Assembly (NCBI GenBank): GCA_017506865.1
Contig: JAFCMP010000005.1
Location: 310,001 to 374,000 of the forward strand
Length of the DNA: 64,000 nucleotides
DNA from: Tribonema minus
Taxonomy: Eukaryota > Sar > Xanthophyceae > Tribonematales > Tribonemataceae
Direction of reading: 5' to 3'
Shown: positions 1 to 62,700 of the stretch, one piece after another
Layout: each line of letters starts with the position of its first letter
Position numbering within the stretch: position 1 is the first letter of the stretch
Made by a program: the position numbers and the translations under genes
The notes under the pieces: model-generated
The model's database searches: none
Told to the model about the DNA's origin: nothing
The model's input: the letters and a program-made list of their open reading frames with translations, nothing else

Positions 1-427
1 GCGGAGCACCGCAGGAGCAGCTGCGCACCGATCCAGCAGCTGCCGTTCGCGACACAGCTATGAACTTCAAGTGCATAACTTCAATTTTTTATCCTCAAGT
101 AATGGTATGAATCTGCACCCATGCAGGCGGTGTACCGCGTGCTGCGCGAGGCAGAGCACCGTAGCAGCAGCTTCATGCTGTACCAAACGCTGCCATTTTG
201 CGTGCTGTGATCTTTAAATTTTCAACCTCAACTCTGCGTGCTGCTCTGAACTTCAGTACACTTGTTGCACCTGCCCCCGCGCAGGCGGTGTACCGCGTGC
301 TGCGCGAGGCGGAGCACCGCAGCAGCAGCTTCATACCGCTCTAGATGCTGCCTATTGGAACGCAGCTGTGAACTTCAAGTTCATGACGTCGTTGACTTTC
401 TCGTGTCATTAACCCGCGCCCATGCAG
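1..427 (+). repeat. Tandem partial copies of the 5' edge of a CYP97 exon
   Basis: Three or so partial copies of the start of the exon that begins at 428. The segment beginning with CATGCAG followed by GCGGTGTACCGCGTGCTGCG recurs at about 121 and 284 before the intact copy at 421, and the stretch from base 1 resembles the middle of the same exon. Each copy keeps its AG acceptor and a few dozen coding bases, then breaks into intron-like sequence with CTTCAA motifs (about 61-90, 370-380). None has a downstream donor matching the real exon. Confidence 0.85.
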
Positions 428-3400
428 GCGGTGTACCGCGTGCTGCGCGAGGCGGAGCACCGCAGCAGCAGCTTCATACCGTACTGGAAGCTGCCGTTTG
501 CGACGCAGCTGCTGGCGAGCCAGGTGGAGTTCAGCGCGGACATGCGGCTGCTCAACGACGTCCTGGATGAGCTCATCTCCAAGGCCGTCGCCACGCAGCA
601 GGTCGCGGACGTGGAGGAGCTGGAGAGCAGGGATCTCGACGTGGCGGAGGACCCAAGGTATGTATGTATATATGTACTTTGAAGCATGTACTTGCTCTTG
701 ATTCTCGCTGAGGGCGCGAAAAGAGCCCCGATCGTGGACGCCCAGCTTGCAACCAGAATCTTCTCGTGTCTTTCAGCACCTTGAAAGTGTCTCAGTGCGC
801 ATTGCCGACCACTTCTCAACAGCGCATGTACTTCGAGTGGAGTATGTGGTTGGAAGTATGTGGCTGTTCTGCAGCGTCTGCCGCAGCGCACGTTGTGTGC
901 TGGCAGTTTGCGCGTGCGGCGGGAGGATCTGGCAGAGTGCGCCGGGGAGGCGTTCATGCGTGTTTTGATTGAGCGCAGAGGTGTTGTGTACCGTGCAATC
1001 CTCGCTACGGGAACAATTTGAGCACGTGTCATCTGTGACCATGCAGCAGTGTAGGACACGGCGTTACAGCAGCACACCCATGACCTACAATGTGCATGCA
1101 CACATGCGAGCGTGCGCACACGCAATCGCGTACCACTACGTGCCCACATCGACACGACGTTCGTTTTCGACAAGCCCCGACGTACCCGCCTGTTGTCTCA
1201 ACATGCCCCCCCCCCACACCACCTCTCTCAAAATCGCTTTCGCCCCCCCCCCCCCCCCCCACTCACAATCAATCGCTTTCTCCCCCCCCGCCCCCCCCCC
1301 CCCCCGTCCTCTGCGCTTGCATCCCCCTGCTCAGCCTCCTGCGCTTCCTGATTGACATGCGCGGCGAGGACACGACGTCCAAGCAGCTGCGCGACGACCT
1401 CATGACCATGCTCATCGCGGGGCACGAGACCACCGCGGCAGTGCTCACCTGGACGCTCTTCAACCTGGCGCAGAACCCGGAGCTGACGGCGCGCGTGCAG
1501 GTACGTTTATGTATGACGCAACCCTCTTAATTAAGTGGGGGTCGTCTTGCGATCTCATGTAGCAGTGCAGCAGGGGCAAGTGTAATATGTGGCAACGTCA
1601 AATGATCCGCATATGCTGGCGCGAGCGGGGGCACGAGACCACCGCAGCAGTGCTCACCTGGACGCTCTTCAACCTGGCGCAGAACCCGGAGCTGACGGCA
1701 TGCGTGCAGGTACGTATATGTTACATTAATGATGATTGAAGTTGTCTTGTGATCTGATGCAGCATTGCAGCAGAGGAATGCTATGTAGCAACGGCAAACG
1801 GTCCGCTAAAGGCTGCCGCATATTCCGGAGCTGACGACACTTGAGCAGGTAAGGTAGCGCACCTGTATCATCGGTAGGGTTGGCAAAATCCGTATTTCTG
1901 AAAACCATATACTGATAAAATACCGTATTTTGCCGTATTTTCCGTATATACGTATTTCTAAACCGTATCTGACAAACGCATATCACCAGTACAGGCGTTT
2001 AAACTTCAACTTCAACTTCAAAAGTGAAGCAGCTAAACCAGACACTTGTAAAACATAAATACAAGCAAACACACTTGAAAATAACATCATGTATGTGCGT
2101 AATTAGCCTAGTGTAGATATTGCCCTACTCCTTCATCCCCCCATCTGCATGTTACATGTTGACAACCTCTTCCTCCGCCGCCTCCATCACTGTAAGCATG
2201 ACTTCCTCATCTGTCTTGCGCTCAGCAGCCTTATCATTGCCTTTAATGAACACTAGCTTCTCACCACGCTCAAGTGCAAGCCTGCTGCGGCACTTAGGGT
2301 ACACATTGCCCCACAGGGACCAGTTGCGCTCGGTTGCACATGCAGTCACGTGGAACGACAGCAGGCGCACTGCCACCCGCGACAAATGAGGAAAATGCTC
2401 GCGACCATAGGTCTGCCACCAGCCGCGGCGCATGCTGCTGTCAGCGAGCTCAACCTTGCCCTTAGGCAGCGATGTACGCTTGGTCAACGTAGGCAACGCA
2501 GCCCACATGGGCTCGGGAAGGGGTGCAAGCTGCAACTTGACAAGCTCAGCCTCAACAGCCTCTGCATGCTCCCCTCCCCCCAGCTCCAGAAAGCACTCTT
2601 GCGCACCCTTGCTCTCTAGCCTGCTGAGTTTACTGAAAGGCAGAAACCACTCCCCATCAACCTTATAGGCGTAGACAGGGTCAAGCACATATGCTGCAGG
2701 CCACGACTTGTCGAAGTGAGTGTTGTAGCGCCGCTCAAATAGTGGCAGCACAGGGGAGCGCTCGACATTGTCAATGTGGTCATCGAAGTCTGCCGCATGC
2801 TGCAACAGCTGCTTCCAGATCGGCAGCATCTGACTCAACAGCGGCTTGTCGCTCTCAACCTGGTGAATGGCATCAGACACAGGCTGCACTAGCTTCTTCA
2901 GCGCTGCTGCCTCATCGAAAAAGTAGTATGCTGCCGCCCGCCCCCGTGCTGGCTCTACTGTGGCTGCAGTCGTAAACGCTGCCGCATGTGTGGTGCCCTC
3001 AGACACTTTACCCCAGCTGCGGTCGCCAACCATCAGCTTGATGGCCTCCTCGGAGTCGAGCAAGTCGGAGCAGATGAAGTGCAGGATGGCGAAGCGCGTG
3101 GGGCAGTGAGAGCGGACGGCCTTGACTTTGCCGTACTTGAACTTCTGCTGCTCACGCAGGGCGCTGTGTATGGTCTCTGAGCCGTTGATGGTGTTGGACA
3201 TCATCAGCGCTTTGCCGTACGCTTTCTTGGACCAGTCGCATCGCGCATTCTTCTCGCCGTGTAGATCCTTGATGAGAAGGGCCAGTGCGTGAGCCTGGCA
3301 CCCCAGAAGCAGCCAAGTCGGGTGCTTCTGCTTCATCAGGTCCAGCGCCTTACGATTTGCCTGCAAAGTTATTGCAGGTGATGGAAAACATCATGAGGCA

Positions 3401-6400
3401 CTGCAGGCATGTACCAAGATTTGCTCCAGTTTTTATGGCCACAACATGTGCATTTGCCAGCATACTATCAATTCCTGTGTGAGCTGTGCTACTAACCACG
3501 TGTCAAGCGAAGAAAGGGAGCATCTGGATAAGCGCGCAAGCGTGGGGAGCTGGTTGACTTGCTTCCATTCGATTTATTACAATGATATGCTGCATTGCGT
3601 GCACTGCTGGACTTATTGTAGCATATATTGCTGTCATTGCATGCAAATGACGCACTGGCAAAAAACTTTCACACACCGTAGCAGCTTCTACAGCAGCACG
3701 TACCTTGGTATTGTCCATGACCATTCCCAGCAGCCTGTCCAGGTTCCCCCTGGTGACCTTCTTCGCCCACCGCATGTGCAGCTCCTCGATCCACTCCGCA
3801 TTCTTGCAAACGCCTCGCGCTGGCTCCGTTGTCACGAAGTAGGAACCGCCCTTTGGCAACAGTGCGCAAAGGTTAACCAGCGGAGTGCCGTCTCCGCAAT
3901 GCTTGCGCCTCCACCCATCGCTGGCAAGCTGGACGAGGTGCAAGGCATCGATCGCTTCCCAGACGTCGCGGCTGACGCGGTCGTGCTCCTTGTTCAGCAT
4001 TGTCCCGGCCAAGGCTTTGCGGTTAGGCAGGTCGGCGCCAAGGGCAGCGAATGCTGCAACCAAGTCCTCCTGCTCAATCAGGTGGAACGCCACCCCGGAC
4101 TTGTAGAAGAAGTGGGCAAGGCTGTTCCGTGCTTGAGTTATCTGGCCTGATGTAGCCATGTAAGGTGTGATGCCAGCAGCACCGCGGTGGCGTTTAGTGC
4201 CAGTCATCTCTACTTCCTCCTCGCCATCGCCAGCAGCAGCAGCAGCAGCGGCTGCTGCTTCGGCAGCAGCAACAGCTGCTGCACTGGCAGCAGTCGCTCT
4301 GAGGCATGCCTTGCTCTTAAGATGGTCGTTTGCTGCGCGCGAAGGGTTGCTGGCACCTAGCTTGGCTGAACAACGAAGGCAAACAAGCCGCACCTCGTGC
4401 TTCACTGAGTCCAGCTCGACACTGAATGACCCCCACCAGCCCGCCTGACCTTGGCGCTTTTGATCACAACGCTTTTGATACAATGCTCTGGCCTGCTTGG
4501 CCAGGTCGGGGCCAGGATCGGCGGCATCCGCCATGCTGCACTGCTCTGTGTGACTTGAAAGAAGGAAATACGGCAAAATACGAATTTTGGCGCGCCAGAA
4601 ATTGACATACGGCGTAGATACGGCGTATATACGGATATACGGTGTATCTACGGAATACGGTGTTGCCAACCCTAATCATCGGGGTAATGATCTCACCCTT
4701 TCAGGTGGATGTAGACCGTCCGTATTTGAAATGAGGAAGTGCGCCATTCACTGGCATTACTCGTGCGGTCTGCTTGGCGCTAGCGTGCCCATGTTGAGGC
4801 ATGAAACAACTGCGGCAGTGCTCAGGCTGGACCCCATCTTTGACGGGGTGCATAGTCCGGAGCTGACAGCAGTGTGCAGGTTTTGCACACGTCCACTGGT
4901 CTAAACAGGGCAGCAACATCTAATTGCTGCATCTCACGCGCGCGCCGCCGCCGCCGCGCGCAGGCGAGCTCGTGTGCTTGATAGCCTCGTGCCGCCTCAG
5001 GTCGCGCCGCTGCAGCTACCAGACACAAACGCACACCGCGTGTGGCCCGTATCTTCAAGTTGCAGGATTATACTGTACGCTCATCGCTCGCGTCTCTCTG
5101 CACGCCGCGCGACCGGCCCGTGTCTTCAACCTGAAGTAAGTATACAGTACTGTGCCTCATCGCTCGTTTACCCGCATGTCCGCGCGCGCGCCCGGGCGGA
5201 GGTGGACGTCGTGCCCGGCCCCGACCGCCTCCCCGAGTTCGACGATCTCGCGCCCCTGCAGCTCACGCGCCTCGCCCTCGTGGAGGCGCTGCGCCTGTAC
5301 CCTGAAGTATCATCATCACATATCATAATCACGCATCGCTCTCATGTGCTGCATGCGTCCGCGCGCGCGCGCAGGCGGAGATAGACGTCGTCCTCGGCCC
5401 CGACCGCCTCCCCGAGTTCGACGACCTCGCGCCCCTGCAGCTCACGCGCCTCGCCCTGGTTGAAGCGCTGCGCCTCTACCCTGAAGTATCATTTTCACAT
5501 ATCGAACTCACGCATCGCTCTCATGTGTTGCATGCGTCCGCGCGCGCCCAGGCGGAGATAGACGCCGTCCTCGGCCCCGACCGCCTCCCCGAGTTTGACG
5601 ACCTCGCCCCCCTGCAGCTCACGCGACTTGCCCTGGTCGAAGCGCTGCGCCTGTACCCGGAGCCCCCAGTGCTCATCCGCCGTGCGCTGCGGGAGGACGC
5701 GCTGCCGCCGGGCGGCACGGGCACACCGATCCGGCTGCCGCGCGGCAGCGACGTCTTCATTAGCACGTGGAACCTGCATCGCTCGCCGGCGCTGTGGGAC
5801 GCGCCGCAGGAGTACAATCCGGAGCGCTTCATGCGGCCGCACTCGAACCCCGCGTGAGTAATGAGTCGATGCGCAGTGCACGTAGGTAGTCGCTCTGCGT
5901 GCTCTGTGTGTACTTGGAAGCACTCCAAAGTAGTACTTCGAAGTATGCATTTGCAGGCGTACGACCGCGAGCGCTTCATGCGGCCGCATGAACCCTGTGT
6001 GAGTCATGAGTCAAGAGTCGCAAGTCGATGCGCGGTGCAAACTCTGCGCAATGCCCGGTGCAAAGTACTTTTGTGTACTCGGAGGCGATACAAAGCATGC
6101 ATTCCAAAGCATGCATTCGCGTGACGCGGCCCGGAGCGCTTCATGCGGCCGCGCGCGAGCTTCGCACGAGTCATGAGTCGATGAACAGCTCAACGTACTC
6201 TGTGTGCTGTTGTGTACTTGGAGGCGGTTCAAAGGATGCATTTGCGTGACGCGGCCTGGATCGTTTCATGCGGCCGCACGCGAATCCCACAAGCCCCACC
6301 GTATAACTCATTGACTTACTCACATACTCATCCATTCGCCCTCGCAACTCTGCAGCGTCACGGGCTGGAACGGCTACGTCCCCAAGGTCGGCCTCGTGGG

Positions 6401-6930
6401 GCTCTACCCGAATGAGATCGCATCCGATTTCGCGTTCCTGCCGTTCAACTCATTGAATCACTCACTCACTCATCGACTCGCCCTCGTGACTCTGCAGCGT
6501 CACGGGCTGGAACGGCTACGACCCCAAGGTCGGCCTTGCGGGGCTCTACCCCAACGAGATCGCCTCCGACTTTGCCTTCCTGCCCTTCGGCGGCGGCCAG
6601 CGCAAGTGCGTCGGCGATCAGTTCGCGCTCATGGAGGCGACGGTTACGCTCGCGCTGCTGCTGCGCCGCTTCGACCTCTCTCTCGCGGGGCCCCCCGAGG
6701 CGACGGGGATGGTCACGGGCGCGACGATACACACGGCGAACGGCCTCATGATGCGCGCGCGGCGGCGCGAGCCGAGCGCTGCTGCTGCTGCTGCTGCCGC
6801 GGCGGCGGCAGGGGTCAACGGCCACCACCACCATCGTCACGGCGGCGCGCATCACGCAGCGGCGGCGGCGGCAGCGGCGGCAGGGGCGGAGCATACGGTC
6901 AACGGGCAGGGCGGCAAGTGCCCCTTCTAG
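428..6930 (+). CDS. Cytochrome P450, CYP97 family (carotenoid ring hydroxylase), 5'-truncated
   Basis: Four exons fit in phase: 428-657, 1335-1500, 5552-5853, 6498-6930 (stop TAG), giving the C-terminal ~376 residues; upstream exons lie outside the window. Visible P450 marks are the I-helix AGHETT (about 1418-1435), the K-helix EALR (5639-5650) followed by a PPVLIRRA segment typical of CYP97, and the haem-binding [11 protein letters not shown] with its cysteine codon at 6607-6609. The segment [15 protein letters not shown] and the end [10 protein letters not shown] are also CYP97 hallmarks. CYP97 enzymes hydroxylate carotene rings in plastids (lutein/xanthophyll synthesis). A tail of Ala, His and Gly runs after the conserved core is unusual and ends with CPF. 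All three introns carry exon-edge copies and intron 2 carries a hAT element. I cannot choose between CYP97 subfamilies. Confidence 0.94.
1620..1856 (+). repeat. Copies of the 3' edge of CYP97 exon 1335-1500
   Basis: About 1628-1709 repeats the last ~80 bases of the exon almost exactly (encoding [20 protein letters not shown]) and is followed by a donor-like GTACG. A second, shorter and more decayed copy at about 1800-1856 keeps CCGGAGCTGACG and a GTAAG donor. Same orientation as the exon, located downstream of it. Confidence 0.9.
1875..4674 (-). mobile_element. Apparently intact hAT DNA transposon with 8-bp target duplication
   Basis: Terminal inverted repeats TAGGGTTGGCAA (1875-1886) and TTGCCAACCCTA (4663-4674) bound 2,800 bp. 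The flanking 8 bp ATCATCGG is identical on both sides (1867-1874 and 4675-4682), the size expected for hAT elements. Both subterminal regions are rich in ATACGG/CCGTAT motifs, which may be transposase-binding repeats. One two-exon transposase gene occupies the interior on the minus strand. The perfect TIRs, perfect duplication and open reading frame suggest recent insertion. The target site was itself a decayed exon copy within a CYP97 intron. Confidence 0.95.
2152..4534 (-). CDS. hAT-family transposase
   Basis: Two exons on the minus strand, 3704-4534 and 2152-3360, join in phase 0 through a GTACGT donor and TTTGCAG acceptor to give 679 residues. The start is the methionine of MADAADPG at 4534; upstream in-frame codons fall in the subterminal ATACGG repeats. 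A BED-like zinc finger is visible near residues 33-75 (WWGSF, C-x2-C, then H and C). SDGW (Asp ~206) and MVMDNTK (Asp ~274) match positions of catalytic aspartates in hAT/DUF659 enzymes, and LGCQAHAL (~297-304) matches the C-x2-H motif. The end holds the hAT dimerisation region ([13 protein letters not shown], then RLALE). No frame break is seen, so it may be active. An Ala run and an acidic EEEVEM segment lie between the finger and the core. Confidence 0.92.
4795..4882 (+). repeat. Decayed far copy of CYP97 exon 1335-1500
   Basis: Beyond the hAT element, sequence resembling CATGAAACAACTGCGGCAGT through GAGCTGACAGCAGTGTGCAG matches the same exon 3' edge with many differences, again followed by a GT. 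It shows that the copy array predates the transposon, which split it. Confidence 0.75.
5185..5490 (+). repeat. Two copies of the 5' edge of CYP97 exon 5552-5853
   Basis: About 5197-5304 and 5374-5487 repeat the first ~110 bases of the exon (start GCGGAGATAGACG or similar, through CTGCGCCTGTACCC). Each is preceded by a GCGCGCGCGCAG- or CCG-type acceptor and then diverges at the same point into TGAAGTATCAT-type intron sequence. Spacing of the three units is about 177 bp. Confidence 0.92.
5940..6300 (+). repeat. Copies of the 3' edge of CYP97 exon 5552-5853
   Basis: The exon end GAGCGCTTCATGCGGCCGCA recurs at about 5969, 6134 and (changed) 6259, followed by GTGAGTCATGAGTC-like donor sequence. 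Units are separated by TACTTGGAAG/TACTTCGAAG spacers. Same orientation, downstream of the source exon. Confidence 0.88.
6352..6455 (+). repeat. Copy of the 5' edge of the last CYP97 exon
   Basis: CTCTGCAGCGTCACGGGCTG through about 6448 repeats the first ~95 bases of the exon starting at 6498, with silent-looking changes, then reverts to the same ACTCATTGA...CACTCACTCAT intron sequence that precedes the real exon. Confidence 0.9.
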
Positions 6931-9430: not shown

Positions 9431-12400
9431 TCACCGTGCGCACGCCGCCGGCGGACAACGCACGGCCGTGAAACGGTTCAAGGGTAAGGGCAACGAGGGT
9501 GGGGAAGGGGGGGGGGGGCAACAGGTGACGCCAACTACTTCAACTGGCGTTTTCATCCGTACCCCCCGCCCGGGCCCACATACAGCCCCTCCACCCCCTC
9601 CCCCCTGGACGAACCCCCCGCGGACCATGTTGAAGACATACTTGAAGTCGCCGATCCGCGCCGTGGCGGCGCGCGCGCGCGCGCGCGCCGCTGCCGCCGG
9701 CGGCGGCGGCGTGAACCGCTGCGACAGCGGGCGCGCGGCGGCGGCGGTGAAGCCGGGCCCTACGCCGAGCGCGCGGTTCTCCAGATCGCGCTCGAAGCGC
9801 GCCAGGACGGGGGCTGGGATCGCGCGGCGAACGCGCGCCTCGTCGATGGCGCCCTGCAGCGCGGCGGCGGCGGCACGCGGTGCGATTCACTTTCATGAAT
9901 GAGATTTTCATGCAGGAGGTGGTGGAGGCTGAGCGGGGCGGACCAGCCCTGGGTGGCAACGTACATGTACTTTTATTAATTTCGCTTCGCAAGGGGCGCG
10001 AAAAGCCCTCTCTTACATGTACCTTTGAGAAAGGTGCACTCATACTTTTGAAGCGGAGCACGCGCGCCTCGTCGATGGTGCCCTGCGATAGGGTTTCGCG
10101 CAATGCATCGTATCGTCATGAATGAGGTGGTGGAGGCTGAGCGGGCAGATGCCCCCGGGTGACAACGCGCCGCGGCAGCACGCGGTGCAATTCAGTTGCA
10201 TGAGGGGTTTGGTGCGCGCGGTTCTCGAGGTCGCGCTCGAAGCGTACGGTGCACGCGCGCCTCGTCGATGGCGCCCTGCAGCGCGGCGGGACGCAGCGCA
10301 ATTCATTCATGTCATGAACGAGGTAGTGGAGGCGCAATTCATCTTCGTGAATGAGGTGGTGGAGGCTGAGTGGGTGGAGCAGATGTGCCCTGGGCGACAT
10401 TGTGCATGTACGTTCGAGAAAGATCAATTCATACTTTGAAGTGCAACACGCGCGCCTGGTTGATGCGCCTTGCGGCAGCGCGGCGGCACGATGCAATCAA
10501 CAACTATTGATTCACTTCGTTGAAGAGGCCCGGTGAGTGGATCACACGGGATGGCGCGGTGCATGCGCGCCTCGCCGATGGCGCCCTGCGGCGACACGAT
10601 GCAACCCAGTTTCATGATTGAGGTAGTGGAGGCTGAACTTAGGCGGCGCAATTCAGTTTCGTAAAGGATCTAGTGGAGGCTGAGAGGGTGGACCAGACAC
10701 GCCATGGGTAACCATGTAGTTTTGAGCACAAGTTGTCAAAATCCTATATCAGGTCGCTGCAGTAGTGGAGGCTAAGTGGCTGCATCAGACATGCCCTGGA
10801 TGAACATGTACCTTCGTCGAGGAAGGTTAATGCACATGAGCCTCAGCGCCCCTGAACGAAATGAATGAGTGAATCAATGAGCGAGTGCACGAATGCACAA
10901 ACCACGGAATGGAACGTGGAGGCGCCACTGAGTGCCCCACTCTCACTGTAATTCCGTCGTCATCGCATGCTTGCAGTGCATCGCAACAGGCGCTGCGATA
11001 ACTAAGATCTTTCGGTAATGGCGCATCGCACTCAATCGCGCTGCATCACGTAACGGTGAATGGGTGGATTGTTCCTTCGGGTTAGGGTTAGGGCGTACCA
11101 TCATGACGAATGCGTTTCTCCCGGTTGCATGAGCAGCGGGGCGAAACAAAAAAAAATGGCGCACGTCAGCCACTTGCACCCCGACTCTCAGAACTACATT
11201 ACTACTTCACCTGTGAAGTGCGCGACGCACCGTCTCCAGCAGGTAGCGCGCAAGCTCCTTGCCGTGCGCACGTGTCTCCCAGAACTACTACTGCAACTTT
11301 GAAGTGCAAAACCTACTACTTCAACTGTGAAGTGCGTGACGCACCGTCTCCAGCAGGTAGCGCATGAGCGCCTTGCCGTGCGCGCGTGTCTCTCAGAACC
11401 ACTACTTCAACTGTGAAGTGCAATGCACCATCTCCACGCAGGTACTTTCATTTTGAAGTGTGACGCACCGTCTCCAGCAGGTAGCGCGTGAGCGCCTTGC
11501 CGTGCGCGCGCGTCTCCCAGAACTACTACTTCAACTTTGAAGTGCAAAACCTACTACTTCAACTGTGAAGTTGACGCACCGTCTCCAGCAGGTAGTGCGT
11601 GAGCGCCTTGCCGTGCGCGCGCGTCTCCTGGTGACCGTCCTGCAGGCACAACTACTTCAACTTTGAAGTGCAAAAACTACTACTTCAACTGTGACATGCG
11701 ACGCACCGTCTCCAGCAGGTAGCGCGTGAGCGCCTTGCCGTGCGCGCGCGTCTCCTGGTGCCCGTCCTGCAGGAACAGCGGCAGCGCCTGCAGCACGCGC
11801 TCCGCCTCGCGGCACGCGCTGAGCCGCGCGCCCACACGCCGCACGCACTTGAGCACCGTCGCCGCCGCCTTGGCGCGCAGCGGCGCCGCGCGCGCCGCGC
11901 TGCAGCCGAGGAACGCCGACAGCGCGCGCACGTCGGTGGCGTTGGCCACCACATCCTCGATGGCGCCCTCCGCCGCCTGGCGCAGGAACTCCACCTGCGC
12001 GTTGCGCGTTGCGCAAGCGCAGAGGGGGAGGTGAGCGCGGGCGGGGTGCGGTGAGCACGGGAGCGGCGGTCGTTTGCGTGCGCGCTAGCAGCAGCGGCGG
12101 CAGGCGCTTGTCTGTCTCGGCAGCGCAAATCTATCAAGTTGAACGTTAAACTAGAGCGTTGGCCACCACGTCTTCAACGGCGCCCTCCGCCGCCTGGCGC
12201 AGGAAGTCCACCTGATGAGCGGTGACACGGCGTGCGGGGTGCGTGTGAGGTCAGAAGCAGCGTCGGGGGGCGCTCTTTTTTGGAACCCTCAGCATGAGAT
12301 GCTGCGCTCGCGGTACATCTACGCGTTCGCATGGGTGCTACGCGACAGCATGGAACTGCCGCGCACATGTTTTGAAGAGCACTGCTGTGACGAGGGCCCT

Positions 12401-15400
12401 ACCCCTGGCGCTGACCCCCGTTCTCCCCTTCCCCGTGCTCGTCTTTGTCCGCAACGAAGAGCACTGACACGACCAGGAGGACCTACGTAAGCATTGCCCT
12501 CGCCCACCCGTCCTCACCTTTTCAGTGTCCTTGTTGCTGAGCACTGGCGCTCACCCTAACCCTAACCCGAGGGCGTTGTCCCAACCCTAGCCCTAGTTGT
12601 TGACCTCAACCTTTATCTCAACCCCCGCCATGTCCTGTGTTTTTCTTTTCAAGCATCGGCGGTATGGGGGGGAGTTAACCCTCATGTCCACCCTGACTCT
12701 TAGTGCAAAGTAATGCTTGCCCCCTCACCTTGTCCATATACCTACTTGTTGATGAGCACTGCTGCATCGTGTAGTGTGTATGTATGTATGATCACTGCTG
12801 CGACAAGGTGCCTAACCCTGACCCTACCCCCAACTTTGCCCGTTCACTTTGTTCGTGCACTGGGGCAACAAGGGGGAGCTCCGGGTATGTGCAAGCACTG
12901 CTGCACTAAGGCGCCTAACCCTTGACATACCCTCAACCTTCACCGCTCATGGTATCCTTGTTCTTATCAGCACTGGCGTGACGCTGGGTACAAGGGGAGC
13001 CTAATCATCACACTCACCCTGACCCTACCCCCAACTTTAATCGGTCACCTTGTCCGTGTACTTGTTGATGAGCACTGGCACGACGAGGGGGGCTCAGGGT
13101 ATGTATGAGCACTCCTGCGGCCCTGACGTACTCCCGACCTTATCCGCTCACCGTGCATGTAGGAGCACTGCTGCCCTACCCCTAGTTCAACCGCTCACCT
13201 TATCCGTGTACTTTTTGATGAGCACCGGTGCGACAAGGGGGAGCTCCGGGTCCAGCGCGCGCCCGAGCCCCTTCCACAGGTCCCCCAGCGTCAGCAGCGC
13301 ATTCTTGGCGACCTGCGCACATGCACGTACGGCACCTAAAGTGAGCCACCACACAACTGGGGGGGGGGGCACCTACACACCGAGTGCGCACTTGCGACCG
13401 CAGGTTGTCGATGTGGCGCAGCACGTCACGCACGAGCTCGCGTGCGTGGCGCCTCGACACCAGCGGCACGTCAGATATTGAAGTTGAAATTGAGCACTGC
13501 ACGCACCTGCGAGCGCAGGTTGTCGACGTGGCGCAGCACGTCACGCGTGAGCCTTGCCATTGCGGCAGCAGCGCGTCACATATTGAAGTTAAAGTTAGGT
13601 CAAAGTCGAAATGATGCGCACCTGCGAGCGCAGGTTGTCGACGTGGCGCAGCACGTCACGCGTGAGCCTTGCCATTGCGGCAGCGGCGCGTCACATATTG
13701 AAGTTAAAGTTAGGTCAAAGTCGAAATGATGCGCACCTGCGAGCGCAGGTTGTCGACGTGGCGCAGCACGTCACGCGTGAGCTCGCGCGCGTGCGCCTCG
13801 ACAAGCGGCGCGTGGTGGCGCGCGAGGCGCCGCGCCGCGCTGAGCGATACCAGCGGCACATCATGCACTGATTCAACCGTTGAAGTTAGCTACCACGCAA
13901 TTGTGCGGGGGGGGGGGTATACGCACACGCCGTACCCACCTGCGAGCGCAGATTGTCAACATGGCGCAGCACGTCGCACGTGAGATGGCGCATGGTGCCG
14001 CGCAAGGGTGGATGAAGGTTGAATTTAGGTTAGTTAGAGTTGAAGTTAGATTGACGTTCATAGCGCACCTGCGAGCGCAGGTTGTCGACGTGGCGCAGCA
14101 CGTCGCGCGTGAGCTCGCGCGCGTGGGCTTCAACGAGCGGCGCGTGGTGGCGCGCGAGGCGGCGCGCCGCGTTGAGCGTGTGGAAGATCTCGGGCCAGTC
14201 GTCGCGCGCGAGCGACGCGAGCGCGCGCGCGAGCTCCGCCTTGGCGTTCGGGCTCGGCCGCAGGTCGTCCCAGCCGAGGTAGTCAAAGGCATCGGGGCAC
14301 AGCGCGGCGCCAGGCGTGGCGCGCGGCGGCTCGACCGTGACCATCTTCCCCAGGGTCAGCGCCTGCGCGGCGCCGCCGTTCGTCCACGCGCCTTCGAAGA
14401 GGTCGTCCGCGGCGGCGGCGGCGGCGGCGGCGGCGGGCGGCGGCGCGGCCGCCTCCGCCGCCGCCGCCAGCGCCGCCTGCTCGCGCAGCTGGCGCTCCCT
14501 GCGGCGCGCTGTCGCTGCGGAGAGGCCTTGCGGCGCCGCCGCTGCTGCGGGGCGCTGCTGCTGCTGATGATGATGATGGTGATGCTCATCCTCGTCTTCC
14601 GCCGCTGCTGGCGCCCACCTGCAGCGCCGACGAGCACCGGGTGAGAGGGGTTACGTCAGAGCGCGCGCCTGCCTGCCTACGACGGCGGTGCGGCACTACA
14701 GACGCATAGGACGTTTACACCGCTGCTGCCTCCGCTGCTGTCGTGCCTCGGCTATAGCTGGATCAGCCTCCCGATGGGATTCTTAGACAAAGGGCACGTG
14801 ATGCTGCGCCTGCACTGATGGCATAAGCCCGAAGCACAAGCACAGCGTAGGCATGTGTGACACAGCTCGGCACGATCCCTAGATGCTTGCATCGTCCGCA
14901 GCCCCGGCGGCGGAGCTTGCTTGAAAGATTTTCTGCTGCAGCGCTCTTTGCGTCCCTGCGCGCGCGCGTGGCGCTTTCGTCTCACCCCCCTCCTCCCTCC
15001 AATGAGCAATTGATTGCCTGGCACGTCATCTTGCGGGTGTGTCTCTACCACGCATGACCTGTCTTCATCGGCCAGGCATCTCACGTGCGCAGCCAGCATG
15101 GGCTGCATATGCTCGCGCCCCCCCCCCTTTGCCCCCCCCCCCCCTGCCCAATTTCCATTGCCGACCCCGCCGCCCACCGCCGCTACCCCACCCGCATTGC
15201 TCTTCACCATCGCACAAGCAAGCGAATCTGCAAAATGTGTATGTACCACATGAAGTGGTCGCCCTGCCGCGTCACCCTCTTGCTTCAAAACCAGCAGCGC
15301 AATCCCTGCAACAGCCGCAATCCCTGCAGTTAACGCCCCCCAAACCTTTAGTCACCCAGGTACCCCCCCCCCCCCCTCAACGCCACGCAGCCACACCCCC

Positions 15401-19456: not shown

Positions 19457-19490
<34 letters not shown>

Positions 19491-21515: not shown

Positions 21516-21667
21516 TGCTCCCCTCAGCGAAACACATTTGACGGTTTCAGCAGGTTGTTGAAGTTGATCTGGAACAAGAACCTCTGCTAATAAGAGAGCG
21601 TGCAGTCCTTGTACTCACGTTCTAGTTACTCGGGCAGGCTGCAGCAGCACCAGAAAGGCTCTGAACG
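21516..21667. promoter_or_regulatory. Short divergent promoter region, TOG gene / RNF113
   Basis: Only 152 bp separate the start codons of the minus-strand TOG gene and the plus-strand RNF113 homologue, so the two transcripts probably share a bidirectional promoter. A TTGAAGTTGATC motif occurs near 21559. No TATA box was identified with confidence. Confidence 0.6.
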
Positions 21668-22792
21668 ATGGTGGACGAGGAAGCACCCGCAGCTTTCAAG
21701 AAGCCAGCTTTCAAGAAGCGAGGACCGGCAGCCAAGCCTGCAGCACTTCGCAAACGAGCTCGACAAGAAGGAGCAGCTAGTAGCGATGAGGATCAGAGCG
21801 GGGTGGCACAAGTAGAAAAGAAGAAGAAGATGGCAGTCAACAGCTTTAGCACCGGCCGGAGAAAAACTGCAGGGGCAGCAGCTGAAGACTCGGACGATGA
21901 GGCTGCAGCTTCGACAACTTTCAAGAGCACACGCGACGCGATGCCAGTCAAGACGCGCGGTGGGGCTACGGACTATAACGAGAGCGAGACGGCCATGGAC
22001 AGAGATGCGCGAGCCATCCTCGAGCGGAGCATTGCTCTGCAGGCGGAGGAAGGCGGCGAGGCAGGCGCCGAGGGAGGGGGGCCTAAAGTCTACAAGGGTC
22101 AGGCGGGCTACAAGCAGCACATCGCCAAGTCCCAGAGCCAGGTGGCGGGCAACAAGCACACGGGCACGCAGGGTCCCATCCGCGCGCCGCAGTACGCGCG
22201 CACCACCTCCGTCTTCGACTACCAGCCCGACATCTGCAAGGATTATAAGGAGACGGGCTACTGCGGCTTCGGCGACTCGTGCAAGTTCATGCACGACCGC
22301 GGCGACTACAAGGCGGGCTGGCAGCAGGAGCGCGAGTGGGAGGAGAAGCAGAAGAAGCGGCGCGCGGCGCAGGCGGCGCTGGAGGCGTGGGGCGGCGAGG
22401 GCGAGCGCCCCGTCGAAGACGACGACGGCTCGGGCGACGACAAGTACGCGGTGGACGAGGACGGCGACCTGCCGTTTGCGTGCTTCATCTGCCGCGAGGC
22501 GTTCCGCGACCCCGTCGTCACCAACTGCGGCCACCACTTCTGCGAGGCGTGCGCGATGGACAACTACAAGCGCTCGACGCGCTGCGCGGCGTGCGGCAAG
22601 CAGACGGGCGGCGTCTTCAACTTTGCGCGGCGGCTCGTGGAGCACATGGCGAAGAAGGGGCTGGTGAAGGCAGGCGGCGGCGGCGGCGGCGGAGACGATG
22701 ATGAGTTTGCGGTGAGAGAGGAAGTGGAGCTGACAGCGAAGTCGGTGGTGACCAAGCAACAAGGGGGCTGGCAAACGGTGTCAGATGATTAG
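21668..22792 (+). CDS. RNF113A/Cwc24-like CCCH and RING zinc-finger splicing factor
   Basis: A single-exon gene of 374 residues. The order is diagnostic: a basic and acidic N-terminal region (1-120), the conserved TSVFDYQPD leading into a CCCH finger at 190-209 (C-x8-C-x5-C-x3-H), an acidic linker, then a RING finger at about 272-309 (CFIC, CGHHFCEAC, CAAC). Family members enter the activated spliceosome and bind near the 5' splice site; the RING can act with ubiquitin enzymes. The end KQQGGWQTVSDD is also family-like. A Gly run follows the RING. It is the only clear multi-domain gene here with no intron, hence no exon-edge copies. Stop is TAG. A bidirectional promoter is shared with the TOG gene. 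Confidence 0.95.
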   Translation: MVDEEAPAAFKKPAFKKRGPAAKPAALRKRARQEGAASSDEDQSGVAQVEKKKKMAVNSFSTGRRKTAGAAAEDSDDEAAASTTFKSTRDAMPVKTRGGATDYNESETAMDRDARAILERSIALQAEEGGEAGAEGGGPKVYKGQAGYKQHIAKSQSQVAGNKHTGTQGPIRAPQYARTTSVFDYQPDICKDYKETGYCGFGDSCKFMHDRGDYKAGWQQEREWEEKQKKRRAAQAALEAWGGEGERPVEDDDGSGDDKYAVDEDGDLPFACFICREAFRDPVVTNCGHHFCEACAMDNYKRSTRCAACGKQTGGVFNFARRLVEHMAKKGLVKAGGGGGGGDDDEFAVREEVELTAKSVVTKQQGGWQTVSDD

Positions 22793-35443: not shown

Positions 35444-39305
<3,862 letters not shown>

Positions 39306-39625
39306 GGCTGCTCCTTCCTCTGCTGCGCTTTCCTCGCCTCCAGCTCCCTGTGCGCAGCTCGAGCTCAGCCAAGTGTCCTGGACCGCCGAGCTGTTGCGGG
39401 GGGTTCGGGGGGCACGAAAATTGAAGATCGCAATTTTGTTTTTAAAACATCAAGAAAGCTCGCAGCACGGGCGTGGTTAACAGCGGGCTTCAGCTTGTAC
39501 AGCTTGAAATCATCAACGCTCAACGCTCAGCACCTGCAGCAGCCCGATCAGCTGGCTCTGCTGTGTAAGATTTGAAATCTGAAAACAGCGGGTAGCCCTC
39601 CAAGTTTCTCTGCAAGGCTGTAATC
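39306..39625. promoter_or_regulatory. Divergent promoter region, ubiquitin-L40 / CCT3
   Basis: 320 bp separate the start codons of two strongly expressed housekeeping genes transcribed away from each other. A shared bidirectional promoter is likely; no specific box was identified. Confidence 0.6.
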
Positions 39626-42600: not shown

Positions 42601-45600
42601 ATGAACACCCACTTGCATGTCACTCGTGTGCTTCTCGTCGACTGGCGACTTGTTGGCGCTAAAAGTAGTGTGCGATGTCGATGGGCAGACGGAGGTAAAG
42701 CAACTTCACCACCATGCAACTTCAAGATTACGTCAACGGCTCAATACTTGAAGCAGCGGTGAACAATCACTTTGCGCTCTGTCAACCGCAACACAAACAC
42801 AGGTGGTGTGCGACGTAGACGGGCGCACGGAGGTGGACGTGAAGCAACTTCAGCTGATGCATCTTCAACATCTGCTTCAACAGTGAACATTCACTTGCAT
42901 GCCCACTCATGTGCTCCTCGTCGACAGACGACTTGTTGGCGCTACATGCGGTGGGTGACGCTCTGCAATCACGCTGACGTTGCAGGTGGTGTGCGACGTC
43001 GACGGCCGCACGGAGGTGGACGTGAAGCGCTACGTGCGCGTGGAGAAGGTGCCGGGCGGGGAGCTGGACCAGTGCCGCGTGCTCGACGGCGTCATGTTCA
43101 ACAAGGACGTGACGCACGCGCGCATGCGCCGCCGCATCGAGAGCCCGCGCATACTGCTCCTGGACTGCCCGCTGGAGTACAAGAAGGGGGAGAGCGCGAC
43201 CAATGTTGAGGTACGGTGCACTCGCAGTGTACTCAAAGTGAACCCGTCCGCCGGAGTACAAGAAGGGGGAATGTTGAGGTACGGTGCTCTCGCAGTGTAT
43301 CCAAAGTGAACTTGGTTGTGTACTGCTCCTGGACTGCCCGCTGGAGTACAAGAAGGGGGAGTCCGCAACCAATGTTGAGGTACGGTGCGCTCACAGTGTA
43401 CTCTAAGTGAACTCGTTCGCGTGCTCGACAGCGTTAAGTTCAACAAGGACGTGACGCATGCGCGCATGCGCCGCCGCATCGAGAGCCCGCGCATACTGCT
43501 GCTGGACTGCCCGCTGGAGTACAAGAAGGGGGAGTCCGCGACCAATGTTGAGGTACGGTGCACTCGCAGTGTACTCAAAGTGAACCTGTAGTCCGCTGGA
43601 GTACCAGAAGGGGAAGAGCGCGACCAATATTGAGGTACGGTGCACTCGCGATGTACTCAAAGTGCACTTGTTTGTGTACTGCATATGGACTGCCAGCTGA
43701 CACAAAAAGGGGGAGTCCGCGACCAATGTCGAAGTACGGTGCACTCGCGGTGTACTCATACTGAACCTGGTGGAGTAAGCAGGGGGGGAGAACGCGACCG
43801 ATGTTGTACAATGAACCTACAGTGTACTTGAAGTGAACTTGTTCGAGTACAGCTCCTGGAGTCCGCTGGAGTACAAGAAGGGGGAGAGCGCGACCAACGT
43901 TGAGGTATGGTGCACTCGTAGTGTACTTGAAGTGAATTTGGTTGAGAACTGCTCCTGACAGTCTGTTGGAGGACAAGGAAGAGGAGAGCGCGATCAACAT
44001 CCAATGTGTAAGTTTCGTAAACTATGTATGACACGAATGGGTCTGGTTGCTTGTGGCTCGTGCGACGCCAGTATACGTCAAGGTATTGCATTCAACCAAT
44101 CTCGTACTTATGCTGATGTATGCACACGTGCTTGTGCGGTGGCCAAACAGGTGACCCAGGAGGATGACTGGAACACGCTGCTGCGGATGGAGGAGGAGTA
44201 CGTGGAGAACATATGCGCACAAATCGTCGCGTTCAAGCCGGACATTGTCATCACGGAGAAGGGCGTGAGCGACCTTGCACAGCACTACTTCATGAAGGTA
44301 AGTTCGAGTTCAGTTTGTATGCCCCGATTTAATGCGCAATATGCTGAGCGATGTCCTCGATTCAATGCGCAATATGCTGAGCGATGAGGACATTGTCATC
44401 ATGGAGAAGGGCGTGAGCGACCTCGCGCAGCACTACTTCTTGAAGGTGACTTTGATAGGCCGTACTGGCAGTGAATGTATGCGCAATATACTGTGCGTTG
44501 ATGACATATTGTCATCACGGAGAAGGGCGTGAACGACCTCGCGCAGCACTACTTTATGAAGGTGAGTTTGAATGACCCTGATCAATGCAGCGCAAGTATG
44601 CACGATAGCTGAGCAATGAGGTCATCGTCATCGCGGAGAAGGGTGTGAGCAACCTCGCGCAGCACTACTTCATGAAGGTGAGTATGTATGAATGGCCCTG
44701 ATTAATGCAGCGAAATGGTTCGCAATATGCTGAGCAATGAGGACACATTGTCATCACGGAAACGGGCGTGGGCGACCCCCCCCCCTCCCCCCCCCCCCCA
44801 AAGGCCAACATCATGTGCTTCTGCCGGCTGCGCAAGTCGGACAACAACCGCGTCTCGCGCACGCGCTTTGCTCTTCTTCTACATGCTCTTGCGATTAAAC
44901 AAAGCAATGCACTTCCCCCCCCCCCCCCGCAGGCCAACATCACCTGCTTCCGCCGGCTGCGCAAGTCGGACAACAACCGCGTCGCGCGCGCGGTGGGCGC
45001 CACCATCGTCTCGCGCCCCGACGAGATACAGGAGAGCGACATCGGCACCGGCTGCGGCCTCTTTGAAGTGCGGAAGATCGGCGACGAGTGAGTGCCGATC
45101 GCGCGCGTGTGTTGCACTGTGAAAGTTGAAGTTCATGAGCTCAACTTCATCGCCAGCGTGACGCGTCTGCGTCTGTGGAGTGAGTGCCGGTTTGCGCGTG
45201 TGTGTTGCACTGTACAAGTTGAAGTTCGTGATGTCGACTTCATTGCCAGCATGACGTGTGTCTTCGTGTGTGTGTCTGCGCCTGTTGAGTGAGTGCCGGT
45301 TGCGTGTGTGTTCGCACCGTGCGAGTTGAAGTTCACGTGTACACTGAGTGCAGGTGCGTCATTGCTGTGATTGTGGAGCCCCTATCATCTGGCAGTTGCA
45401 AGAGTTTGCACCGATGAGTTGAAGTTCATGTGAGTTCATATGCATCGCCAGCGCGACACGTCTGCGCCTGTGGAGCTCCTGTCGCTTGACTTGTTTCATT
45501 GCCGCGCTTTCAAAAGGCGTTCGCAAAACTGATCACTGCCATTGTGCAACACAGTGGCCATTGCTGATGGCGATTGCGTCACTCAGCCGTGTGTGACTGA

Positions 45601-47005
45601 TGGGAGAGTCGCTTGATGCAATTCGCACCGCTCAACACTTGAAGTTGAGGTCAGCTGGCCTCAACTTCAATATTGTGAGCGCTCTTGAACAACCTGCCTG
45701 TCGCTTTGCATGTTGGCTATTTGCTGCAAGTACCTGTCCTGGCTGCAGCGCAACAGGTGCGCGTGCTTCTGCTACATGTGATGGTACGGGTAGACCTGGT
45801 GTCAGCGCTGCAGTGAGGCACTGCACCTAGGGCCAAGCGGCAGTGCCGCATGGCTAGCTCTGTTTTCTGCCGCCGTGTGGCATGCATGCACATTGCTCAA
45901 GCGCTGCTGCTGCCGCCGCCGCCGCAGGTACTTTGCCTTCCTGGAGCAGTGCAAGGACCCGAAGGCGTGCACGGTGCTGCTGCGCGGCGGCAGCAAGGAC
46001 GTGCTCAACGAGGTCGAGCGCAACCTGCAGGACGCCATGCAGGTAATTTATATGGTGTTGTGTGTGCGTTCAAGTGATCTACATGTATGCTGACGTGACA
46101 CTTCAATAATACTGAACTGCAAGCAGAATCTTAAACCGCCGTGCAGCAAGGACGTGCTCGCCAAAGTCGAACGCAACCTGCAGGACGCCATGCAGGTGAT
46201 GCATGGAAACAAACATCGTACAGCTCTACATAGTTGACAAATTGTGGTCAGCCGCAAGTGCCTTGTTATAATGTACGTTTACATTATTACATGGTAGCTC
46301 ACATCAATGATAAAAATGCTCACAGTTTAAGCAGCAAAGATGTTTAGTATCCATTTTTTTTCCCTTTCTACACACAACCGGACTTGAATCAGCACGCAAT
46401 TGCAAAAGATTTTGAGTCTTCCAGATCACCACTTCCACCATGTTCATCAAAGTCTTTTCTCTTCCAGCTGGTGCAAGTACCAGATGGATGTATACCCACC
46501 ATTAACTTCTCAGTTCAAGCCCCCCCCCCCCACCACCACCACCCCGCAGGTCGTCCGCAACGTGGTCTTCGAGCCGCGCCTCCTGCCCGGCGGCGGCGCG
46601 ACGGAGATGGCCGTCGCGGCGGCGCTCACGCGCGCGGCGGAGGCGGCGGACGGCGCGCAGCGCTGGCCCGTCGCCGCCGTCGCGGGCGCCTTCGAGGCCA
46701 TCCCGCGCACGCTCGCGCAGAACTGCGGCGCGAGCGTCGTGCGCACGCTGACGCAGCTGCGCGCCAAGCACGCGGCGCCGGCGGCAGCGGCGGAAGGCGG
46801 CGGCGCCGGCGCGGCGGCGGCGGCAGCGCACACGGGCGTGACGTGGGGGATTAACGGTGTGACGGGGGAGCTGGCGGACATGGACACGCTGGGCGTGTGG
46901 GAGCCGTACAGCGTCAAGGTGCAGACGTACAAGACGGCGATCGAGGCGGCGTGCATGATCCTGCGCATCGACGACATCGTGTCGGGCGTCAAGACCAAGA
47001 GGTAG
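39626..47005 (+). CDS. CCT3: T-complex protein 1 subunit gamma (CCT3)
   Basis: Nine exons in phase: 39626-39825, 40084-40184, 40700-40788, 41508-41660, 42986-43210, 44151-44297, 44933-45087, 45928-46042, 46550-47005, giving 546 residues, the normal CCT gamma length. Group II chaperonin marks are visible: [15 protein letters not shown] and TNDGNCILR, the ATP site [33 protein letters not shown] and a C-terminal RIDDIVSG typical of gamma. CCT folds actin and tubulin in the cytosol as a 16-mer, and gamma is one of eight subunits. An Ala/Gly-rich insert ([13 protein letters not shown] and following) sits in the last exon after TLTQLRAKH, longer than usual. Introns 4-8 carry arrays of exon-edge copies, and MITE fragments lie just past two donors. 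Stop is TAG. Confidence 0.97.
40357..40422. repeat. Hairpin in CCT3 intron 2
   Basis: AAGCACCAATGGATCA (40357-40372) and TGATCCATTGGTGCTT (40407-40422) are perfect 16-base inverted repeats, with partial pairing further in (GAAACC with GGTTTGA). It is not related to the MITE family. It could be a tiny foldback element or a small-RNA hairpin. Confidence 0.85.
41688..41793 (-). mobile_element. MITE fragment next to a CCT3 splice donor
   Basis: CAGCGGCGACCACGG, then GCGGCTAACCACTCCTTGTC and ACCTAGAGCTCTACGATTTT match the centre and right arm of the element at 20277. It begins ~28 bp past the donor at 41660. Confidence 0.9.
41855..42215 (+). repeat. Copies of the 3' edge of CCT3 exon 4
   Basis: GATGCTGTCACCAAGGTAAA recurs at about 41860, 42005 (GATGCAGTCACC) and 42194, each with the same intron head (GCGCAAATACCATATGTGTA or close). 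Same orientation, downstream. Confidence 0.93.
42505..42850 (+). repeat. Copies of the 5' edge of CCT3 exon 5
   Basis: CAGGTGGTGTGCGACGTCGA followed by CGGGCGCACGGAGGTGGA recurs at about 42514, 42662 (decayed) and 42801, upstream of the intact exon at 42986. Units contain AACTTCAA and CAACTTCAG spacers and CACTTGCATGTCACTCGTGT. Confidence 0.94.
43245..44012 (+). repeat. Long array of copies of the 3' edge of CCT3 exon 5
   Basis: GAGTACAAGAAGGGGGAGAG with the end CAATGTTGAGGTACGGTGCA recurs at about 43255, 43342, 43520, 43600, 43700, 43870 and (decayed) 43975. The third unit reaches back over 130 bases of exon (GTGCTCGACAGCGTTAAGTT), the others less. Each retains a GTACGG-like donor. It is the largest exon-edge array in the window. 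Confidence 0.95.
44360..44775 (+). repeat. Copies of the 3' edge of CCT3 exon 6
   Basis: ACATTGTCATCACGGAGAAG then GGCGTGAGCGACCTCGCGCA and CACTACTTCATGAAGGT recur at about 44389, 44507, 44622 and a short end at 44748, spaced ~115-120 bp. Confidence 0.94.
44800..44870 (+). repeat. Copy of the 5' edge of CCT3 exon 7
   Basis: About 60 bases after a poly-C tract, GCCAACATCATGTGCTTCTG onward, repeat the start of exon 7 at 44933 with few changes; it lacks an AG directly before it (AAAG). Confidence 0.92.
45086..45360 (+). repeat. Tandem copies of the donor region of CCT3 exon 7
   Basis: GAGTGAGTGCCGGTTTGCGC-like sequence followed by GTTGAAGTTC recurs at 45086, 45178 and 45287, so here almost only the intron head and splice donor were multiplied. 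Confidence 0.88.
46140..46199 (+). repeat. Copy of the 3' edge of CCT3 exon 8
   Basis: AGCAAGGACGTGCTCGCCAA through CCTGCAGGACGCCATGCAGG repeats the exon end with its donor (GTGATG). Confidence 0.92.
46203..46266 (+). mobile_element. MITE fragment after an exon copy
   Basis: ATGGAAACAAACATCGTACA, GCTCTACATAGTTGACAAAT and TGTGGTCAGCCGCAAGTGCC match the left half of the 20277 element, starting a few bases past the copied donor. Confidence 0.85.
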
Positions 47006-59700: not shown

Positions 59701-62700
59701 TTGAACATGAACCTCAATGTTGATGTTGTTCAACTTCATCTTGAACACCAACTTCACCTTCTGATCATCAACTTCACCTTCCGCCATAAATCCGCTCTTC
59801 CCGTGCCTGTGAGCACAGTGCCGAGTGTATCGCCAACGCCTTCTCGAACAGCTCGGTCTGCTTGCCCGGTCCTTCATAGAAGTACATGACTTCTGGTTAT
59901 GGCACGTTTGTACACGTACACATCACGTCTGTACGCTCGCTGTACACCTACAGGGCAATCTGATCTTGACTGTCCAAGAGGCCAAAGGACTGGAGTTCGA
60001 TGATGTTTTGCTGATGAACTTCTTCACGGACAGCTCGGCTTGTTCGGTGAGTCGTGATCAGACTGAGTACATGTGCTCATGTGCCATGGCCTGCAAGGGG
60101 TCTTGCTGATCAAATTTTCTGAAAAACTTGAAAGCCCACATTCAGATTCTGCTGATTCTGAATTCAGAATCAGATTATCTGGTCACCAAGGTGACTGCGC
60201 CATGATGAATGCTATTAATGGGATGAAGAGGTGTGCATAAGTGGGGCTTCGTTACAGTGAGTATGAATGCGCCAGCGATTAGTGCACTATGGTCAGGTCT
60301 TACTAGAAGCTGTCAAGCCTGCTTCCGATTTGTCTGCCAGTGCAGGCGTAATTCGACAGTGACAAGTGTGCAGGGTGGCCATGAAACGGCGTACTTCTAC
60401 ATGCCCGTCAACAGCGCGGTACTGGACTTTCTTGCAGGACTGCGCACTCCAACAACATCGCTGCACCTCTATACTCTCGACTTACATTCGTGAGGTCTCC
60501 AAAAAAGGCTGGCTCTTCAATTGCTTTTAAGCGCACCCACAATTGTGCGCAGGGTCTTCAATTGAGACATACAGTGCCACGGTGGCACCTCGCAGGCCAG
60601 ATTTGGCATTTGACTAGACGGGAATCTGTGCTTCATCATGAACATTGCCATCATTCTTGTGTGATACTTCAGCAATATATCGTGACATTGATAGTCTCAT
60701 ACTTCACGTCAAAGTACTTTGCATTGCTGCTTGCTCAGAGTATATGTGGGTCCGACAGGGTTAGGGTTAGTTTAGGATAGGCTTCAGACCTACTCTTTAA
60801 CATGCCCATTTGACGCTGCACTAATGAGCAGAGCGGTTGTCGACTGCACAGCTGCTGCACCAGCAGCATCCCAGAGGATGTCGACTGATGCAGGACCAGC
60901 ATGTGAGCGGTTAGCACTGGACTTCCTGTCTACCAAATGTTAATGGCATTTATGCAGTCAGGTACTCACGGAACTATGTGACCGTGCCTTCTACAAAGGT
61001 GCGCAATTCTGTGACACCCGTGGCGACTGTTTGATAAATCTCAACGCATGTCCTGTGAATGTTGCAGGAGTGGCGCGCCATACTGCCAGGTGGGGAGCAA
61101 CATGACACCGCCGATGCTGCGGATGATGACCTCGACACCGAGTCTTGCACCGCAGCAGCGCACATGATAAGAGTGAGTTGCACTGGCCACCCTGTCCTGT
61201 CAAACTGCAGCGGCAGGCGTTGTGCAGTACTTAAAATTTGATAGTCAGCTTGACTCCATCAAACAATAAGAAAGAATGTTGCTTATCACACGCGTCCTAC
61301 TGGTATATGCCATGTCACACCACACCAGGGCGCAGCGCCTGAATGACAACTTCAAAGTACTTCAGAAGTACTTCGAAGTATAAAAAGAAGGTACACTGTC
61401 TTAGTGCTCTGCTCGCCCTTGCGCGGCCGCAATCTACTGCAACCCGCTGAGCACTTGCCTATGACCAAACTTCAACTCATAGCATTGCTGAGCTCACGCC
61501 AGCACTTTGTCAGTGATTGCAACCGTATCACGCCCCATTTGTACTTCAACACCGCCAGACACCACGCCACGAAGTCATTCGAGCTAGCCAGCCAAGCGCA
61601 TCAACCCCAGGAGTTCAAGCCCATGGGCATCACACACTGACCGGGCATCCATACGCCGCTGCATGCGCGCACTGCAGGCGCACCGCCCCTACGCGCGCCC
61701 CCTGCCCTTTGACGCCGACGCACACCGCGCGCTGGAGGCGGAGCTCAAGTGCCTGTACACGGCGCTCACGCGCGCGCGCGCCAACGTCTGGGTCATGGAC
61801 CAGTGTCTGGAGCGCCGCGCGCCGGCGTTTGAGCGCTGGGCGCGGCGCGGCTGCGTGCGCATCGTGGATGGCAGCAGCGCGGAGGATGCCGCAGGCGCAG
61901 CGTGGGATGCTGGCGCCGGCTTTGGAAAGCAGGTGAGCGTGCAGTATTGTGGTGGCGCAGGCATACGCAGTCTTGATTTCCTTGACAGTTTTGAATTACT
62001 TTGCACTGTCTGAGCACTGAGCGTGCCGCCGCACGTGCGTCGTCGACGGCTCGGCAGACGTCATGCCGTGCGCGTGCGCGTCGTGAGCAGCAGCGCGGCG
62101 ATGCCGCAGGCGCAGTGTAGCAGGCTGGCGCCGGCTTCGGGAAGCAGGTGAGCGCGGTATCGAGGTGGCGTGCCAGTGACGCAGGCATACTCAGCCTGGT
62201 CCTGCTTGGCAGTTTTTTTTTTATTCACTGTTTGCGCACTGAGCACGACGTGGCCGCGCTACATGGGCGACGGCATGTCATGCGTTGACATGCCGTGCGC
62301 GCAGCGCCGACGGCAGCTGCCACTGGCAGTTTTGGCAAGAAGTTGAATGTGAGTGCGTTACAACAGTAACGTGCAGGTCAGAGACCCACGTGGGGGGTGC
62401 AGGTGCACACTGTTCCTCACCATAGTCAACGCAGACCGCAGGCCTGGAGCGCACAGAGCAAGCGGCACGTGCGGCAGTGGCGGCGGCGGCAACGGCGGCG
62501 GTGACGGCGGCAGCTGGGCCGATGCATATTCTTGCGCCGCTGCTTGTATCTGAGGCAAAGCTTGCGACATTGCAGCGCATCAGGGGGGCCAGCACTGACA
62601 GTTGCACTGGCCGCGCCTCCCCCGTGTGTGCAGAGCACAAAGGCCGAGTGGGCGGCGCAGGGTCACCGACTGCTGTGCAACGCGCAAGCGCGCGGCGACA

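Follow-up and report, generated by a model that had tools for sequence, protein, structure and literature searches.

Gene content of the window

The region studied, which we call the window, is the 64,000-nucleotide stretch C5:310001-374000 of the 158-Mb Tribonema minus genome (554 contigs). Its CCT3 protein is 100% identical to a protein of this xanthophyte alga, and our nine-exon CCT3 model recovered all 546 amino acids of P0001 exactly; a seven-exon model of CYP97 was built from P0221. Splice-edge statistics were taken from six modelled genes: these two together with four further chaperonin genes, CCT7, CCT1, Cpn60, and CCT2, which we named from a Pfam search and their translations.

Within the window, an L40 gene was identified by a Pfam L40e match, and Pfam evidence for a putative helicase near 61678-61932 was weak, with UvrD_C_2 below the cut-off. 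A Pfam search of one piece of a putative TOG gene found no domain, and the single protein match to this gene (E = 7e-4) carries PF12348, which we take to be CLASP_N. The largest CYP97 intron contains two open frames antisense to CYP97 (2152-4675, minus strand). The first has a hAT dimerisation domain by Pfam and thus probably marks a hAT transposon; the second has no match in Pfam. An intronless CCCH + RING zinc-finger gene lies at 21668-22792, and self-BLAST gave no local duplications near it.

Introns carry copies of the adjacent exon edge

Self-BLAST of the window returned 140 pairs; a large number were direct repeats within a few hundred base pairs of each other, and some were distant low-complexity pairs. 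Their density was uneven, and stretches at ~36.0 to 41.6 kb and 46.2 to 54.9 kb had no local pairs. The first-pass annotation had proposed that introns in the window hold partial, diverged copies of the neighboring exon edge together with its splice site (here called decoys). In a uniform edge test (70-bp windows, E ≤ 1e-3, 1 kb on either side), same-strand copies were present at 13/28 splice edges of CCT3 and CYP97, which bears out the proposal; the L40 decoys were seen by direct reading (Table 1). The same test found copies of 2/12 exon interiors and 77/185 intron windows in these two genes, so that edges were not commoner than introns by this count. Across all six genes, 8/42 donor and 6/43 acceptor edges were copied. 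The distribution was patchy, with CCT7, CCT1, Cpn60, and CCT2 together contributing 1/57 copied edges; start and stop edges (22) were too few for analysis.

Table 1. Decoys and decoy arrays in the window (window positions)
Gene	Source exon	Decoy positions	Strand	Description
CYP97	428-657	upstream of exon	+	5'-edge decoys; acceptors at ~-23 (outside window), 127, and 285
CYP97	1335-1500	1628..1721	+	3'-edge decoy with donor, downstream of exon
CYP97	5552-5853	5178..5551	+	two 5'-edge decoys; one acceptor intact, the other GG
CYP97	5552-5853	5953..6290	+	three 3'-edge decoys; donor intact in 1/3
CYP97	6498-6930	6299..6446	+	5'-edge decoy, strict tandem, offset 142
Putative TOG gene	11707-11994 (predicted)	11200..11650	-	edge-copy array beside exon
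Putative TOG gene	14069-14618 (predicted)	13385..14068	-	edge-copy array beside exon
Putative CUB gene	30410-30643 and 31802-31967 (predicted)	30718..31839	-	arrays beside exons
L40	35444-35606	35748..36006	-	three upstream 5'-edge decoys, ~30 bp of exon each; read directly
CCT3	41508-41660	41859..42234	+	three 3'-edge decoys, 14-18 bp of exon plus donor
CCT3	42986-43210	42516..42845	+	three 5'-edge decoys
CCT3	42986-43210	43248..44003	+	array of seven to eight 3'-edge decoys
CCT3	44151-44297	44388..44777	+	3'-edge decoy array
CCT3	44933-45087	44787..44863	+	5'-edge decoy
CCT3	45928-46042	46143..46200	+	3'-edge decoy
Putative helicase	61678-61932 (predicted)	62072..62151	+	one 3'-edge decoy

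In CCT3 the copied donors belong to exons 4, 5, 6, and 8 and the copied acceptors to exons 5 and 7; one further family begins 2 bp inside exon 7. In CYP97, donor copies derive from exons 2, 3, 5, and 6 and acceptor copies from exons 2, 4, 6, and 7. In both genes the decoys of an edge lie within a single intron, and the splice site is spanned by at least 8 bp in 6/9 CCT3 and 8/10 CYP97 families. Full-length head-to-tail units were seen at CYP97 exon 7 and CCT3 exons 5 and 6. In the families of CCT3 exons 7 and 8 the alignment is shorter than the offset, and ~40% of families in the two genes do not form full-length tandem units. Among single tandem pairs, 8/10 overlap by 0 to 6 bp at their junction. 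An assembly duplicate is unlikely, because copies in the CCT3 region are 67 to 98% identical. A chaperonin gene on contig C51, picked for repeats already visible there, has the same edge-copy pattern.

Position and orientation followed the rule given in the first-pass annotation. Searches with 96 exon edges from the six genes gave 35 same-strand matches in the adjacent intron, donor-edge matches always lying downstream (24/24) and acceptor-edge matches always upstream (11/11); none was inverted or elsewhere in the same gene at E ≤ 1e-3. At a looser cut-off of 1e-2, 4/49 matches in CCT3 and CYP97 were inverted, each 14 to 20 bp long. Local pairs were likewise 225 direct versus 5 inverted. Any tandem duplication that straddles a splice site yields donor copies downstream and acceptor copies upstream, and therefore neither position nor orientation calls for a special mechanism.

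Edge copies occur at random loci

Outside the window we sampled twenty 10-kb loci and five further loci (25 in total), one of which (L011) adjoins the window and contains the first half of CYP97. Exons were predicted with a gene finder written for this analysis, which recovered most CCT3 exons exactly and also called decoys as exons. Because of this confusion, any predicted exon that was the weaker copy of a stronger one was discarded; the behavior is itself a warning for annotation, since a simple gene finder mistakes decoys for exons.

Local direct duplications occupied 0 to 33% of locus length. The 25 loci held 90 local-duplication families, of which 44 spanned an exon edge, 13 were intron only (<500 bp from an exon), and 33 were distal; the corresponding numbers in the window were 22, 5, and 0. 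Decoys were present at 21/76 predicted exon edges in the window and at 40 edges outside it, 39 of these in the 25 loci, among 242 predicted edges. The duplications were offset by a median of 139.5 bp (middle half, 108 to 180), and three or more pairs were found in 20/44 edge families versus 0/13 intron-only and 4/33 distal families. The sharing of edge copies by unrelated genes, part of the original description, extended to other contigs: a Pfam domain was present in 8/9 predicted proteins of affected loci, including uS19, DnaJ, CLPTM1, and peptidase M3. The densest locus of those sampled, L030, has 33% of its bases in local duplications, which lie in a predicted DnaJ gene.

Local duplications were concentrated near exons. 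At an exon score of 15, coverage was ~19 to 23% from 25 bp inside to 400 bp outside predicted exon edges versus 6 to 7% beyond 800 bp, and the contrast shrank to 20 to 24% versus 9 to 12% at a score of 35. The first-pass annotation had inferred a genome process; its occurrence with an edge bias at random loci supports that part, and the refuting outcome specified in the annotation did not arise. The positional rule does not by itself point to a special mechanism. Near-perfect tandem duplications (97 to 100% identity, offsets of 61 to 331 bp) were noted at L011:2746-3407, L013:9865-9987, L017:2103-2480, and L022:165-458, and none of them spans a predicted exon edge.

Excess of duplication ends in exons over a simulated null

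The frequency of copies at edges is not explained by geometry. In a null simulation, duplications fell uniformly, exons were under constraint, purging acted, and decay was neutral; edge families made up 0.23 to 0.44 of those detected. The observed share near exons was 44/57 in the random loci, 22/27 in the window, and 15/22 in the six modelled genes; it falls to 44/90 in the loci once distal families are included. An earlier null, which scored windows and not families, had placed edges (105/336) well below introns (854/1,513) and was replaced by the family-based simulation. In a circular-shift test, edge families numbered 22/27 in the window (9.0 expected) and 31/72 in the loci (13.8 expected), but this test pools genic with distal DNA, and our case rests mainly on other evidence.

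The ends of families gave a second and cleaner measure. Ends in the exon (0 to 120 bp) outnumbered those in the adjoining 160 bp of intron by 42:10 in the random loci and 21:3 in the window, and by 26:7 and 20:2, and then 16:4 and 16:2, respectively, at successively stricter exon scores. The simulated null produced ratios of ~1:1 (149:176 and 183:177). Tested against one half, 42 exonic ends among 52 give a P value near 1e-5 (normal approximation). A threefold preference simulated in the same way gave 261:104 (2.5) and a sixfold preference gave 340:60 (5.7); roughly, a three- to sixfold preference for exonic ends fits. In the random loci 38/42 exonic ends lay within 80 bp of the edge and 4 at 80 to 120 bp, closer to the edge than under any simulated preference. 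Exon G+C (67 to 71%, versus 52 to 59% outside) is a candidate attractant of duplication ends.

These observations bear on an alternative in which uniform tandem duplication and purifying selection suffice without any edge preference. It yields the positional rule outright, and the like copying of edge and intron windows in CCT3 and CYP97 agrees with it. So do the youngest families, which lie mostly off edges (1/13 of the best preserved families in the random loci were at edges, by a measure biased against multi-copy arrays), and the window had been picked in the first-pass annotation for this very pattern. Both the edge share among near-exon families and the ratio of ends, in the random loci and in the window alike, nevertheless depart far from what uniform duplication produced in simulation, and we consider it unlikely.

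The account that we favor, with modest confidence, is local tandem duplication and neutral decay plus a roughly three- to sixfold excess of ends in the first part of the exon. Local tandem duplication is common in the T. minus genome. Where a duplicated stretch extends from exon into intron or the reverse, the copy that remains attached to the exon would keep the gene working, and its partner would become an intronic decoy of the exon edge, carrying the splice site, and decay neutrally. Duplications within exons would presumably be removed by selection, and some arrays may add copies by later slippage or exchange. Duplications with one end in the first part of the exon would exceed expectation about three- to sixfold, relative to those lying wholly in the nearby intron. 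A more tentative possibility is that a duplication process now or recently active in T. minus has its ends drawn to the outer ~80 bases of spliced exons; introns would then grow outward from exon edges, filling with decoy splice sites.

Decay of the decoys and the rival of prolonged survival

Decoy decay is close to neutral. The GT or AG was intact in 25/33 decoys, compared with ~26 expected under neutrality, and the idea that decoy splice sites are conserved was rejected on that ground. Real and decoy copies diverge by 8.2% in their exon parts and 16.6% in their intron parts, a twofold step that neutrality predicts because the exon is constrained, the decoy is free, and both intron parts are free. 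Between decoys (excluding 28 pairs that did not align across the junction), aligned columns diverged by 13.2% in exon parts and 20.1% in intron parts. This gap goes beyond pure neutrality and leaves room for conversion of decoys by the exon. Selection holding the exon parts of decoys had been suggested by decoy-decoy identities of 79% versus 60% with gaps counted, but it was set aside, the gap being much smaller in aligned columns.

An exon that keeps converting or recopying its decoys would leave exon-anchored copies recognizable for longer, and the preference would then reflect survival. Besides the decoy-decoy gap, this explanation draws on two CYP97 decoys whose exon parts are identical to the exon (54/54 and 29/29) while their intron flanks have diverged, and on edge families having more copies and being older than distal families by the exon clock (P = 0.002). 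By the intron clock, however, the age difference was not significant (P = 0.25), and in simulations run without gene conversion, slow exons alone, which might have prolonged recognizability, failed to increase the share of edge families. We lean toward a preference that arises mostly at birth; survival is a serious rival, though on balance a rather improbable one.

Evidence on the use of decoys comes from CYP97 and one transcript-derived protein, P0232, which is 99% identical to CYP97 over half of the query. At exon 6 its residues match the copy that is continuous with the remainder of the exon. The protein terminates by read-through of the exon-6 donor, apparently through intron retention.

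Other proposed origins

The first-pass annotation had raised an introner-like mechanism and template switching as sources of the copies, and neither found support. Insertion by an introner-like or splice-targeted mobile element would suit the many genes affected and the splice site in each copy, but a genome-wide search with one CCT3 edge led to six places (best candidates), all within CCT3, the 96 edges gave no nonadjacent or inverted match within the six genes, and no junction motif was significant (see below), which makes such an element very unlikely. Copying from RNA, or template switching on transcripts, would account for sense-oriented copies located in genes. It predicts spliced junctions, and a search with 43 exon-exon junctions gave 3 matches at 2 of them (both in CYP97) that cross by 12 to 16 bp only, are ambiguous and GC rich, and resemble an intron end; no clean spliced junction was seen. 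Subunits of one chaperonin complex are presumably expressed alike, yet 6/16 edges were copied in CCT3 versus 1/46 in CCT1, CCT2, and CCT7 together, and we regard RNA templating as highly improbable. Equally hard to credit is selection of decoys for splicing or its regulation: many retain good-looking splice sites, but their retention and divergence are near neutral.

Relation to known duplications

The closest known kind is tandem genomic duplication across exon-intron boundaries, and the first-pass statement that no named class fits is not supported. In the potato RdRp gene, a tandem duplication across the intron-exon boundary made a new intron and exon (PMC4974935). That is one young case, whereas Tribonema has many copies, mostly diverged, that stay intronic as decoys. 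Tandem genomic duplication, or internal gene duplication, is a recognized source of introns (reviewed in PMC3443670, which cites Gao and Lynch 2009). Local direct duplication in genes, involving splice sites, is common to both, but in the classic model an exonic AGGT segment is duplicated to give a new intron, whereas in Tribonema existing introns appear to lengthen. Introners (PMC9860276) likewise occupy many genes in one genome and supply splice signals; unlike them, the Tribonema copies revealed no shared element or dispersal in searches with one edge genome-wide and with 96 edges within six genes. Direct repeats near intron splice sites (PMC11782384) also lie close to intron borders, but they are 4 to 30 bp long and are compared between both borders of an intron, while each Tribonema copy derives from one edge, lies beside its source, and is mostly tens to >100 bp long. 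No account of such exon-edge copies in Tribonema appeared in the portions of the literature that we searched. What sets Tribonema apart from the known duplications is the number and age of its copies, the decoys left within existing introns, and the preference for ends in exons.

If that preference is a birth bias, it would identify one specific way in which introns become longer and the choice of splice sites widens, and T. minus would serve as a natural setting in which to study how the spliceosome passes over near-copies of a genuine site. The genome holds both affected and unaffected chaperonin genes, which can readily be compared.

Sequence motifs

The window contains 38 occurrences of AACTTCAA/TTGAAGTT where 1.1 are expected, and AACTTCAA was present by eye at several junctions. 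A set of overlapping motifs was found at 23/116 junctions versus 546/6,698 control positions. Weighted per edge, the frequencies were 0.150 and 0.113 (P = 0.12), and AACTTCAA was dropped as a breakpoint motif; a correlation between motif and coverage was also set aside, being confounded by the copies themselves. Ten-C runs numbered 116 in the window (0.0 expected), and CTTCAA was enriched in noncoding DNA at whatever distance from exons.
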